From contig NZ_MKEK01000001.1 in the NCBI RefSeq assembly GCF_001752395.1, positions 1,105,044-1,169,043 of the forward strand: a stretch of DNA of 64,000 nt. The letters are read 5' to 3'. This document shows positions 16,724 to 20,238 of the stretch, piece by piece. Origin of the DNA: Rheinheimera salexigens. Lineage in GTDB: Bacteria > Pseudomonadota > Gammaproteobacteria > Enterobacterales > Alteromonadaceae. Each line of letters starts with the position of its first letter. Within the stretch, counting starts at the first letter, position 1. The notes under the pieces were generated by a model, which saw only the letters and a list, made by a program, of their open reading frames with translations, was not told where the DNA came from and did not search any database. Position numbers and translations under genes: made by a program.

Positions 16724-17770
16724 GTGAGTAACTTAGAAAGCACTATGCATATAAATACAGCGCAAACTGACCATAAGGTGCCAAGCAACAGAATTGATCA
16801 TAAATTCTCTATTGCGCCAATGCTCGATTGGACAGATAAGCATTGTCGTTATTTTCACCGCTTACTAAGCCAGCATGCGGTGCTTTATACCGAAATGGTT
16901 ACCACAGGCGCTATTATTCATGGCAGTGGTGATTATTTAGCTTTTAATGAGGAAGAACACCCGCTGGTATTGCAGTTGGGTGGTTCGGATCCGCAGCAAA
17001 TGGCCCATTGCGCTAAATTAGCTGAACAACGTGGTTATGACGCCATTAATATTAATGTCGGCTGTCCATCTGATCGGGTACAAAATGGTATGTTTGGCGC
17101 ATGCTTAATGGCGCAGCCGCAGTTGGTAGCAGATTGTGTTAAAGCCATGCAGGACGTGGTGAGCATTCCAGTATCGGTAAAAACCCGAATTGGAATTGAT
17201 GATTCTGATGATTATCAGTTTTTACAAGATTTTGTCCAAGTCATGGCCGATGCCGAGTGTCAGCAGTTAGTTATTCATGCCCGTAAAGCGTGGTTAAAAG
17301 GCTTAAGCCCGAAAGAAAATCGCGATGTTCCCCCGCTAAATTATCAGCGAGTGTTTCAATTAAAGCGTGATTTTCCGCAGTTAGATATCAGTATTAATGG
17401 TGGTGTTAAAACCTTAGCCCAAGCACAACAGCTATTAGAGCATGTGGATGGCGTAATGGTAGGGCGCGAAGCTTATAGCAACCCTATGTTATTAACGGCA
17501 GTTGATGGCTTAATTTATGGCAACAGCAGCTTGGTAAGAACCCCACAGCAAGCGGTACTAGATATGCTGCCGTATATAGAGCGACAAATGAGCCAAGGAG
17601 CCAGGTTTTGGCATATCGCTCGGCATATGTTGGGCTTATTTCAAGGCATGCCTGGCGCCAGACAGTGGCGTCGTTTGCTGAGTGAACAAGGCCATTTATC
17701 GACGGCAACACCAGAATTGTTACTGCAAGCATTACAGAAAATTAGTCAGTTTGAAGATTGCACTATTTAA
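16724..17770 (+). CDS. dusA: tRNA-dihydrouridine(20/20a) synthase
   Basis: 348 aa flavoenzyme that reduces U20/U20a in the tRNA D-loop. [17 protein letters not shown], the [12 protein letters not shown] block with catalytic Cys in MFGACLM, and [13 protein letters not shown] are DusA-type signatures. The C-terminal [11 protein letters not shown] helix region is present. The listed start (16724) is GTG; an ATG eight codons inside (16745) is an equally possible start. A strong terminator follows at 17802. Confidence 0.94.
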
Positions 17771-17801
17771 TAGTTTATTTGACTAAATATTAGTTTTATC
17801 T

Positions 17802-17831
17802 AAAAGAGCCAATGCATGCATTGGCTCTTTT
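17802..17831 (+). terminator. Perfect 30-bp palindromic terminator after dusA
   Basis: AAAAGAGCCAATGCA followed directly by its exact reverse complement, then TTTATTT. The hairpin with A-tract and U-tract would work on both strands. It isolates dusA from the PspC-type micro-operon downstream. Confidence 0.88.
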
Positions 17832-17837
17832 TTATTT

Positions 17838-17863
17838 AACAATATGATTAAAATCATATTGTT
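17838..17863. promoter_or_regulatory. Perfect 12-bp inverted repeat upstream of the sigma-54-like promoter
   Basis: AACAATATGATT, two bases, then AATCATATTGTT. With no U-run beyond it and lying 18 bp upstream of the -24 element, it looks more like a protein-binding dyad than a terminator. It is closer to the promoter than a classical enhancer site for a bacterial enhancer-binding protein. Confidence 0.55.
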
Positions 17864-17880
17864 ATGTTTAATTTTTAAAG

Positions 17881-17896
17881 TGGCACGGCACTTGAA
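17881..17896 (+). promoter_or_regulatory. Sigma-54 (RpoN)-type promoter of the PspC micro-operon
   Basis: TGGCACGGCACTTGAA matches the -24/-12 consensus TGGCACG-N4-TTGCA at every defined position except the C of the -12 TTGC, which is A here. The 10-nt spacing between the GG and the -12 dinucleotide is exact. The start of transcription would fall near 17907, 35 bp before the first ORF. The E. coli psp promoter is also sigma-54 dependent and, from memory, also lacks the -12 C. Confidence 0.6.
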
Positions 17897-17941
17897 ATAC
17901 ATTGGTTGTAGTATCGATTAATAACATTCAAGGAATATGCT

Positions 17942-18244
17942 ATGAACACTTTAATGATTGCCAGCTTTACCTCGTTACTAAGTATCAGCGCTGTAGCTGA
18001 ACCTTTAGTTACTGAAACATTTACTACCCCAACACTAGCCACTGAAATACAAACTGATATTCAACAGTATGCAACTCAGCTGTCAACAGAAACTGCGCTG
18101 CATGCGCATCAAGCATTGTTTGCGACAGGGCTAAGTTTGCTAAGCAATATTGAGAATGATGCCAAGCAAGATATGGAGTACTTAGTTCAGCACATGATGT
18201 TGTTAGCCAAAAAGTTAGCTGCCAGCAGCTTAAAAGCTGAATAA
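17942..18244 (+). CDS. Small secreted or periplasmic protein of unknown function
   Basis: 100 aa. The N-terminus MNTLMIASFTSLLSISAVAEP is a likely Sec signal peptide with cleavage after AVA. The mature part is about 80 residues of amphipathic helix without cysteines. I do not recognise the family. AAGGA lies 7 nt before the ATG. It is the first cistron behind the sigma-54-like promoter and is followed after 2 bp by a 43-aa membrane ORF, so it probably belongs to the same envelope-related unit as the PspC-domain protein. Confidence 0.65.
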   Translation: MNTLMIASFTSLLSISAVAEPLVTETFTTPTLATEIQTDIQQYATQLSTETALHAHQALFATGLSLLSNIENDAKQDMEYLVQHMMLLAKKLAASSLKAE

Positions 18245-18246
18245 CA

Positions 18247-18378
18247 ATGTTTGTGGCGTCAGATTGGTTATTGCTGCTCTTTCTTGGCCCCGTGCTCAGT
18301 ATGATCCCGGTGTTACTATTTTGGCAGGGTATTAGCATTATGTTGCCGCTTCTGCAAAAAGTAACATGGCTTAACTAA
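18247..18378 (+). CDS. 43-aa putative single-span membrane protein
   Basis: Begins MFVASDWLLLLFLGPVLSMI and ends KVTWLN. The sequence is almost wholly hydrophobic, with one or two membrane-spanning stretches. It starts 2 bp after the preceding stop and has no good Shine-Dalgarno of its own, which points to translational coupling. The call rests on packing and hydrophobicity; I know no named family. The size and position in a PspC-containing unit suggest an accessory envelope-stress peptide, which is inference. Confidence 0.5.
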   Translation: MFVASDWLLLLFLGPVLSMIPVLLFWQGISIMLPLLQKVTWLN

Positions 18379-18389
18379 GGGAAAATACC

Positions 18390-18494
18390 ATGTATTGGAT
18401 AGGAGTTGAGCTGTTGAGTTTCAGTGGTTTTATGTTGGCTTTATGCTGTATTAGCCAACATAAAAAATTAACTAAATATAAGGAAGAAAAATGA
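18390..18494 (+). CDS. 34-aa putative membrane microprotein with basic tail
   Basis: Reads MYWIGVELLSFSGFMLALCC then a basic tail ISQHKKLTKYKEEK. One transmembrane helix with a positive cytosolic end resembles the N-terminal half of PspB in layout, but it is too short to assign. AAGGG lies about 8 nt before the ATG. Its TGA overlaps the ATG of the PspC-domain gene (ATGA at 18491-18494), a classic coupling arrangement, which supports it being translated. Confidence 0.55.
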   Translation: MYWIGVELLSFSGFMLALCCISQHKKLTKYKEEK

Positions 18495-18688
18495 ATACCG
18501 AACAAACAAATGGTTGGTTTTGTGCCCGACACCAACGTAAAATTTCGGGTGTTTGCGCTGGATTTGCAGATTATTATCAGCAGCCAAGATGGTTGATTCG
18601 TTTATTGGCAGTGTTGTTATTAATTACCGCCCCTTTACTAACTATTAGCGCGTATTTTATCGGCGCAGTGCTATTACCGCAGCGCTAA
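18491..18688 (+). CDS. Short PspC-domain membrane protein
   Basis: 65 aa. It contains the PspC signature RKISGVCAGFADYYQQPRWL followed by one long hydrophobic helix (IRLLAVLLLITAPLLTISAY) and ends LLPQR. PspC proteins sense envelope stress such as secretin mislocalisation and signal through PspA. This one is only the PspC domain core, about half the size of E. coli PspC. AAGGAAG precedes the ATG. No pspA or pspF is in the window. It is the last gene of the unit behind the sigma-54-like promoter. Confidence 0.82.
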   Translation: MNTEQTNGWFCARHQRKISGVCAGFADYYQQPRWLIRLLAVLLLITAPLLTISAYFIGAVLLPQR

Positions 18689-18804: not shown

Positions 18805-19251
18805 ATGCGTATACTGTCAACTAAGTTGCTGTTATCAATACTGCTGCTATTAAGCCCCTCGTTGTTTGCCGAACCAACAACGGCTATAGATGTACAAAAT
18901 GCTGAAGTACGCCAGCCACTGTTTGGCCGTAGCGTCACCGCAGGTTATTTAACATTACAAAACAATTCTGACCAAGCTGTAAGCCTAATAACGGTTACTA
19001 GCGATGCTTTTCAGCGCGTTGAGTTACATCAACATAGCCATAAAAACGGTGTGATGCGCATGGAGCAAGTTAATAGCATAACCGTAGCTGCGGCGAGTGT
19101 GGTTAACTTCACACCAGGTGGTTTACACTTAATGCTATTTGAACCGACTACAGAACTTGCCGTCGGTGATACAATATCTTTACAGTTACAATTTTCTAAT
19201 CAGCAGCAGCTTAAAATCATTGTGCCTGTTGTTGCACTGCCAAAACGTTAA
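18805..19251 (+). CDS. Periplasmic copper chaperone, PCu(A)C family
   Basis: 148 aa from ATG 18805, chosen over an in-frame GTG at 18799 because AAGGAG ends 7 nt before it. The signal peptide ends near LFA22. The mature domain has the His/Met copper site: His in VELHQH, Met in GVMRM, and the H-x-M pair in GGLHLML, with an N-terminal AGYLTLQN strand. Members deliver Cu(I) to the CuA site of cytochrome oxidase in the periplasm. The DUF2333 gene follows after 9 bp. Confidence 0.9.
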   Translation: MRILSTKLLLSILLLLSPSLFAEPTTAIDVQNAEVRQPLFGRSVTAGYLTLQNNSDQAVSLITVTSDAFQRVELHQHSHKNGVMRMEQVNSITVAAASVVNFTPGGLHLMLFEPTTELAVGDTISLQLQFSNQQQLKIIVPVVALPKR

Positions 19252-19260
19252 GGAATAATA

Positions 19261-20238
19261 ATGGGCAATTTTAAATTAATTAGCTTTGGTGCACTAATAC
19301 TACTGGTTGTGATGTATTTAACAGCTTGGTGGGTGAGTAGTGAGCCTGATTTATTAGTAGCAGAAATCAATCAGAGTCAGCAAGCATTAGGCGAGCGTGC
19401 GCCCGTTGGCTATAGCACCACTACCGCATTAATACGGGTGAGTGAAACTTTGCTAAATAAAAGTGGTGGTTATTTATCAAATGATATTATGCCGCCCTTT
19501 AGCTTGCTAGATAATATGCCCGCATGGGAGCTGGGTGTATTAGAAATGTCGCGAGATTTAGCATTGGCTTTGCGTAAAGATTTAAGTCGCTCACAGTCGC
19601 AATCGACAGAAAATAAATTTTTAAAAGTGGCCCAGCCGCAGTTTAATATTGACCATAAAAGTTGGGCTATTCCCAGTGCAGAATCGGAATATAAAAAGGC
19701 GATTGGCCAGTTATACTTATATCGTGAAGAATTAATAGATCCGGCAAAACCAGACAGTCAATTTTATGCCCGTGCCGATAACTTGCGTGATTGGCTTAAA
19801 GCGGTTGAAAAACGTTTAGGTAGCTACTCGCAACGCTTAAGTGCCAGTGTTGGTCAAGATAGATTAAATACCGACTTAGCCGGCGATGCGTCTGCGCGGC
19901 AATCAACTAATGCACCATCGCTACGTAATATTAAAACCAGCTGGTGGAAAATTGATGATGAATTTTACGAAGCGCGCGGTGCGGCTTGGGCGTTATTGCA
20001 CTTTTTAAAAGCGGTAGAAGTCGACTTTGCCGATACCTTAGAGCGTAAAAATGCCATGATCAGCTTGCGGCAAATTATTCGTGAACTTGAGGCAACCCAA
20101 CAATCTATTTGGAGCCCAATGATTTTAAATGGCAGTGGCTTTGGTTTATTAGCCAATCACAGCCTTGTAATGGCCAATTACATTTCTCGAGCTAATGCAG
20201 CTTTAATTGATTTATCAGAACTATTAACACAAGGGTAA
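19261..20238 (+). CDS. DUF2333 family inner-membrane protein
   Basis: 325 aa. One N-terminal membrane anchor (ISFGALILLVVMYLTAWWV, residues about 7-25) and a large periplasmic helical domain. The blocks GYSTTTALIRVSETLLNKSG, GGYLSND and LRKDLSRSQSQS are those of DUF2333. Function is unknown; the family is common in marine gammaproteobacteria. It lies 9 bp after the copper chaperone and 8 bp before an outer-membrane barrel gene, so the three may be one transcript. Confidence 0.88.
   Translation: MGNFKLISFGALILLVVMYLTAWWVSSEPDLLVAEINQSQQALGERAPVGYSTTTALIRVSETLLNKSGGYLSNDIMPPFSLLDNMPAWELGVLEMSRDLALALRKDLSRSQSQSTENKFLKVAQPQFNIDHKSWAIPSAESEYKKAIGQLYLYREELIDPAKPDSQFYARADNLRDWLKAVEKRLGSYSQRLSASVGQDRLNTDLAGDASARQSTNAPSLRNIKTSWWKIDDEFYEARGAAWALLHFLKAVEVDFADTLERKNAMISLRQIIRELEATQQSIWSPMILNGSGFGLLANHSLVMANYISRANAALIDLSELLTQG

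Follow-up and report, generated by a model that had tools for sequence, protein, structure and literature searches.

Within the window, by which we mean the whole 64,000-nucleotide stretch of Rheinheimera salexigens DNA analysed here, positions 17881-18688 hold a sigma-54-type promoter followed by four closely packed small open reading frames (ORFs), the last of which codes for a 65-aa PspC protein. The question raised by this arrangement is whether the four genes form a minimal envelope-stress module of their own, as an initial annotation of the sequence had proposed, or whether they belong to a Psp response encoded elsewhere in the genome. The features considered are the following:

16724..17770, + strand: dusA (tRNA-dihydrouridine synthase A), left neighbour; NCBIfam NF008774, 531.7 bits against a cut-off of 269; start codon uncertain
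17770..17786, no strand assigned: PspF-type upstream activating sequence ATAGTTTATTTGACTAA, overlapping the dusA stop codon; matrix match
17802..17831, + strand: dusA terminator hairpin (-17.7 kcal/mol, z -6.7), between the activator site and the promoter
17852..17864, + strand: IHF-like site AATCATATTGTTA, one mismatch to the IHF consensus WATCAANNNNTTR, on which the naming of all IHF-like sites below is based
17881..17896, + strand: sigma-54-type -24/-12 element TGGCACGGCACTTGAA; pattern match, conserved in the genus
17942..18244, + strand: ORF1, 100 aa, putatively exported, without a known family; ORF list, hydropathy, dN/dS
18247..18378, + strand: ORF2, 43 aa, hydrophobic; ORF list, hydropathy, dN/dS
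18390..18494, + strand: ORF3, 34 aa, a single hydrophobic stretch, tail rich in lysine; ORF list, hydropathy, dN/dS
18491..18688, + strand: short PspC, 65 aa, PspC domain only, without the C-terminal half of full-length PspC; Pfam match
18805..19251, + strand: PCu(A)C copper chaperone, right neighbour; family match
19261..20238, + strand: DUF2333 protein, right neighbour; family match

The four-gene unit and its conservation in Rheinheimera

The promoter and the four tiny, tightly arranged ORFs (100, 43, 34 and 65 aa) of the initial annotation were confirmed in the sequence, as was its statement that a known domain is found in the last ORF only: the short PspC matched PF04024 with 53.7 bits (cut-off 25), and nothing above cut-off was obtained for ORF1, ORF2 or ORF3 with Pfam and NCBIfam. 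By hydropathy alone, ORF1 has a short, hydrophobic N-terminus compatible with a signal peptide, and ORF2, ORF3 and the short PspC each contain a hydrophobic stretch; ORF1 would go to the periplasm and ORF2 and ORF3 to the inner membrane.

In-frame comparison of 10 genus loci, using only pairs with pS < 0.6 and leaving out the window sequence, gave dN/dS values of 0.11 for ORF1, 0.18 for ORF2, 0.52 for ORF3 and 0.03 for PspC, showing that ORF1, ORF2 and PspC are clearly constrained genes and that ORF3 is less certain. One proline of ORF2 was invariant across 24 aligned sequences. ORF1 had four database relatives, one of them 98% identical, and as a direct query it was matched in one of 40 relatives, because it changes fast; queries with PspC and DUF2333 worked better.

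Conservation of the gene order in relatives, which the initial annotation had named as a point to check, was found. Ten of the 11 loci of named relatives bearing the four-gene unit belonged to Rheinheimera, one of these ten being a gammaproteobacterial MAG. The short PspC was detected in 13 of 25 genus genomes in a first genome search and, once 30 loci had been added and read, in 17 of 31. These 30 loci came from the 31 genus genomes, the one left out (G019) having no strong short-PspC match. Reading the loci showed the four-gene order in 16 of them, each from a different genome and one lying on the other strand of its record (L018), that is, in 16 of the 17 genomes with a short PspC; the seventeenth (L065) was read for ORF1 and PspC alone. 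The 13 loci read that had no short PspC kept ORF1 (11 loci) or ORF2 (the other two). No PspA paralogue or PspG-like protein was seen in the Rheinheimera loci.

The absence of pspA and pspB pointed out in the initial annotation is true of the four-ORF unit, in which no PspA or PspB hit was obtained, but not of the genome. About 320 kb from the unit, the host encodes a PspF (520.5 bits against a cut-off of 443.55), a PspA 52% identical to that of E. coli and a full-length PspC, and a 78-aa ORF between the last two is, by its appearance, a putative pspB; rpoN is also present, away from the unit. Because pspF, pspA and the full-length PspC gene sit elsewhere in the genome, the unit is not a stand-alone Psp system, and the proposal of a minimal stress module has to be revised. 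The unit and the canonical pspF-pspABC system, of which the host has one, have PspF, sigma-54 and a PspC-domain protein in common, and the activator sites of the two in the host are alike in type and in their distance from the promoter; but the unit contains neither pspA nor pspB, and its PspC ends with the PspC domain.

Control elements between dusA and ORF1

The -24/-12 element TGGCACGGCACTTGAA ends 45 bp upstream of the ATG of ORF1 at 17942 and differs from TGGCACN5TTGCW at one position, with GA instead of GC at -12. GA is also found at -12 in the presumed pspA promoter of the host, and GT in the psp promoters of E. coli. With up to two mismatches allowed, this pattern occurred in the window about as often as chance predicts (54 matches against 47.9 expected), so that the promoter alone was not convincing and was dropped as evidence by itself. 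It became convincing because an element of this type was kept in all 30 Rheinheimera loci read, with or without the short PspC.

An activator site, absent from the initial annotation, was located at 17770-17786 with a matrix built from one PspF-type site of each of 11 pspA promoters (8 distinct), the new unit being left out. With the symmetrised matrix, only 2 of the 63,984 window positions, this site included, scored as high, and it was the best of its locus in 14 of 14 relatives; with the unsymmetrised matrix it ranked third in the window on both strands, and in two of the 14 relatives a site 130 nt upstream outscored it. When its E. coli site was removed, the matrix still ranked the E. coli pspA and pspG sites best of their loci. 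In the 28 genus loci that could be evaluated (the other two of the 30 started too near the promoter), the top-scoring site ahead of the -24/-12 element was also the top one of the whole locus in 27 (symmetrised matrix) and lay 107-111 nt before the TGG in 26, the exceptions being L065, without a good activator site, and L070, with its best site at 129 nt. In the host, the gap between the activator site and TGGCA is 95 nt both at pspA and at the unit; it measured 91-95 nt in the 23 of 30 genus loci that fitted the pattern used, and at the psp promoters of E. coli the corresponding distances fall below 95 nt.

A plain 15-letter version of the site gave 39 matches in the 31 genus genomes against 22 for a reversed control, and by our count 22 of the 39 fell in the main psp or the dusA locus. 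Three of the matches were in the host genome: one at the main psp locus, one at the dusA locus and one at 3416871, inside an ORF and with no promoter of this kind seen, which was treated as a chance match. Two PspF-type sites elsewhere in the genus were followed, as judged by eye, by TGGCA-type promoters, one of them (genome G019, positions 2015-2200 of L135) before an apparent pair of efflux-pump genes and the other (G012, minus strand of L139, site at 2918 of the reverse complement) before a 267-aa ORF; by sequence these are possible further PspF targets.

An IHF-like site with at most one mismatch was present in 25 of the 28 evaluable genus promoters (2.4 expected from mononucleotide shuffles), and the best such site was placed 28-29 nt before the TGG in 25 of the 28, one of them having two mismatches. 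IHF is the weakest of the three parts of the switch, because only five of the eight pspA promoters tested reached at most one mismatch. When 10 promoters were aligned, the activator site, the IHF-like site and the -24/-12 element stood out as conserved islands, and the terminator between the activator site and the promoter drifted in sequence. A perfect inverted repeat, AACAATATGAT-TAAA-ATCATATTGTT (17838-17863, z -5.9 as RNA), overlaps the IHF-like site; it was ruled out as the activator site for lack of conservation in relatives.

The sigma-54 control suggested in the initial annotation was supported by conservation, and a PspF-type and an IHF-like site to go with it were found; dependence on RpoN and on PspF is a prediction. 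PspF binds the activator sites of pspA and pspG, both established targets, and IHF assists at the pspA/pspF region (PMC3709507, in part). The unit is probably a second PspF target of this Rheinheimera-group bacterium, placed behind dusA where E. coli has its pspG.

The slot behind dusA in other families

The pspG gene of E. coli lies directly after dusA, starting 133 nt after it; an activator site is located just 3' of the dusA stop, and a terminator-like stretch, recognised by eye, comes before the promoter. RpoN holoenzyme bound this dusA-pspG spacer in vitro (PMC8743547, in part). Like the Rheinheimera unit, pspG, the known second PspF target of E. coli and Yersinia, follows dusA in E. coli, where it has a PspF-type site, an IHF-like site and a promoter (TGGCATGATTCTTGTA), and it codes for a small membrane protein; it differs in being one gene instead of four and in a shorter distance between site and promoter, and PspG was not found in the genus. 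Of 394 genomes examined across the order, 84 had PspG (83 above cut-off), and none of these belonged to the host's own family; PF09583 had no match in 25 genus genomes, including the host. The place of pspG in E. coli is tied to that of the window by gene orders in other genomes, namely dusA-pspG-PCuAC in G033 and pspG-PCuAC-DUF2333 in G035 and G107, with no dusA within the stretch read in these two. In families f12 and f25 the PspG locus did not adjoin dusA in the stretches read. The E. coli record (L146, 2640-2750) has the small RNA PspH annotated directly 3' of pspG.

A PspC match of any length was obtained in 264 of the 394 genomes of the order, and from the matches listed we hand-picked 40 loci outside the genus, in 39 genomes, for their short open frames. 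Of these chosen loci, 37 had dusA upstream or DUF2333 downstream (both in 25), DUF2333 being found 3' of the short PspC in 34 and the PCu(A)C chaperone in 28; neither dusA nor DUF2333 was beside the short PspC in the remaining three (L100, L105 and L112). A pspA paralogue, here called pspA2, preceded the short PspC in 26 of the 40. On a tree of 54 rows, from which L025, L030 and L033 had been dropped as similar to others and in which L095, L103 and L105 were kept despite long branches, pspA2 was set apart from the main pspA genes (2 label changes against 18.2 by shuffling); the paralogues formed two clades and may have one origin.

By our count, PspG adjoined the short PspC by coordinates in at least 19 genomes among the matches listed, and in four loci of family f25 that were read (L105 included) the order was pspA2-short PspC-pspG, not beside dusA. 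In 19 of the 40 chosen loci, counted by eye, the short PspC was followed by a PspG-like protein of 70-122 aa. Single sequences of this protein (ORF5) gave nothing above cut-off with Pfam and NCBIfam, and a profile of 12 of the 19 aligned with the C-terminal part of PspG over 34 columns at an hhalign probability of 94.2%, four control comparisons giving 0.2-2.6%. ORF2 was rejected as a relative of PspG (hhalign probability 2.6%).

Genes resembling ORF1 and ORF2 were also found outside the genus. They had their own promoter and were followed by a second promoter, for pspA2 in L082 and L091 and for the short PspC in L080 and L083; the Rheinheimera unit would be a fused, reduced form of such two-promoter loci. 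Identities to the window proteins were 10-19% for the ORF1 relatives and 7-31% for those of ORF2, so homology outside the genus rests mainly on place and shape. In L084 (443-1690), and similarly in L085, ORF2 follows dusA with an activator site and a promoter of its own, and what by eye is a rhodanese-like gene separates ORF2 from a part made up of ORF1, pspA2 and the short PspC; E. coli PspE, too, is a rhodanese (PMC9239133, in part). Two genomes carried two short-PspC loci each (L112 and L113 in G071, L023 and L114 in G039), one with pspA2 and the other a lone short PspC between dusA and DUF2333.

The second psp operon at dusA-DUF2333 of these related families thus shares with the Rheinheimera unit the slot, the short PspC, PspF-type sites and, in several loci, the ORF1- and ORF2-like genes, but differs in the PspA paralogue (26 of 40) and the PspG-like protein (19 of 40), neither of which was seen in Rheinheimera. 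The unit is probably a reduced form of an ancestral second psp operon with pspA2, a short PspC and PspG or a PspG-like protein. We lean somewhat towards a wider history, in which the ancestor of this gammaproteobacterial order would have had a complete, PspF-controlled operon of this kind (pspA2, short PspC, PspG) behind dusA, E. coli pspG and the Rheinheimera unit being different leftovers of it. Many PspA and PspC paralogues are reported in two large Psp surveys (PMC9239133, PMC11237479), and the parts of these surveys that were consulted contain no description of a dusA-DUF2333 psp locus. Nor did we find an earlier description of the locus in the open-access titles and abstracts searched.

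Predicted role of the unit and alternative readings

The short PspC aligned with model positions 8-60 of 121 of the full-length equivalog TIGR02978 (49.6 bits, below its cut-off of 104). E. coli PspC requires its C-terminal half to contact PspA and to induce psp, and the fragment PspC1-68 did not bind PspA, did not induce psp and lowered the proton-motive force when overproduced (PMC3068692, in part). Since the window protein corresponds to the N-terminal half only, these fragment data favour an effector over a sensor, and by this analogy the short PspC is most likely an effector. Inner-membrane or proton-motive-force stress would release PspF from the PspA of the main psp locus; freed PspF would bind 17770-17786, IHF would bend the DNA at about 17852-17864, sigma-54 polymerase at 17881 would start transcription near 17906, and ORF1, ORF2, ORF3 and the short PspC would be made once PspF is free, the short PspC acting as effector.

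The main rival is a damping role, in which the short PspC and its partners would compete with full-length PspC for PspB or for membrane sites and so form a negative or modulating arm. The protein does keep the N-terminal and membrane half, the behaviour of the corresponding E. coli fragment (lowered proton-motive force without psp induction) is compatible with it, and PspF control would then yield a delayed negative feedback; but in 26 of the 40 chosen loci outside the genus the gene of a PspA paralogue precedes that of the short PspC as its own partner, which fits an output complex better, and we regard damping as doubtful. That the promoter is real and served by another enhancer-binding protein appears improbable to us: the host does have eight further matches to the PspF model, none reaching the PspF cut-off (E 4e-84 to 2.1e-68), so that it possesses other activators, and NtrC, too, bound the spacer between dusA and pspG of E. 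coli in vitro (PMC8743547, in part), but the site of the unit resembles those of pspA and its 95-nt gap equals that of the host pspA, and no second inverted site was conspicuous on inspection, as opposed to a systematic search, of the 10 aligned promoters.

Less credit still is due to two readings of the small ORFs. If they were mostly spurious and PspC the sole gene, read through from dusA, the weak constraint on ORF3 and the few database relatives of ORF1 would be accounted for, but not the low dN/dS of ORF1 and ORF2, the retention of one or the other in the 13 loci that have no short PspC, or the strong dusA terminator upstream of the promoter; we judge this very improbable. Just as remote, or slightly more so, is a set of small membrane proteins of toxin-antitoxin or holin type with a PspC domain by chance. 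Tiny, hydrophobic proteins would suit such a set, and the ORF2 relative of L080 gave a holin match below cut-off (E 0.11); the fixed chromosomal place, the PspF-type control and the occurrence, in other families, of the short PspC together with PspA paralogues and PspG speak against it.

From its sequence and surroundings, the unit is best read as an effector operon of reduced size under PspF control that occupies the pspG slot. It resembles a second branch, serving output only, of the PspF regulon to which the main psp locus belongs, and it likely represents a new set of members of that regulon, a variant of what is known and not a new kind of system. According to PMC9239133 (in part), descriptions of PspF control have been confined to Enterobacteriaceae, and the sequence evidence presented here would extend it beyond that family. 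Since pspG comes after pspA2 and the gene of the short PspC in one family, genes of PspG-like proteins take that position elsewhere and those of four new small proteins occupy the pspG slot in Rheinheimera, the orphan pspG gains a possible history and a set of partners, and its role could be tested by assaying PspG, the PspG-like protein and the short PspC side by side. If the reading of an ancestral second operon is true, the Psp response would have a general output arm, separate from the sensor arm and made up of a PspC without its PspA-binding half together with lineage-specific small envelope proteins.
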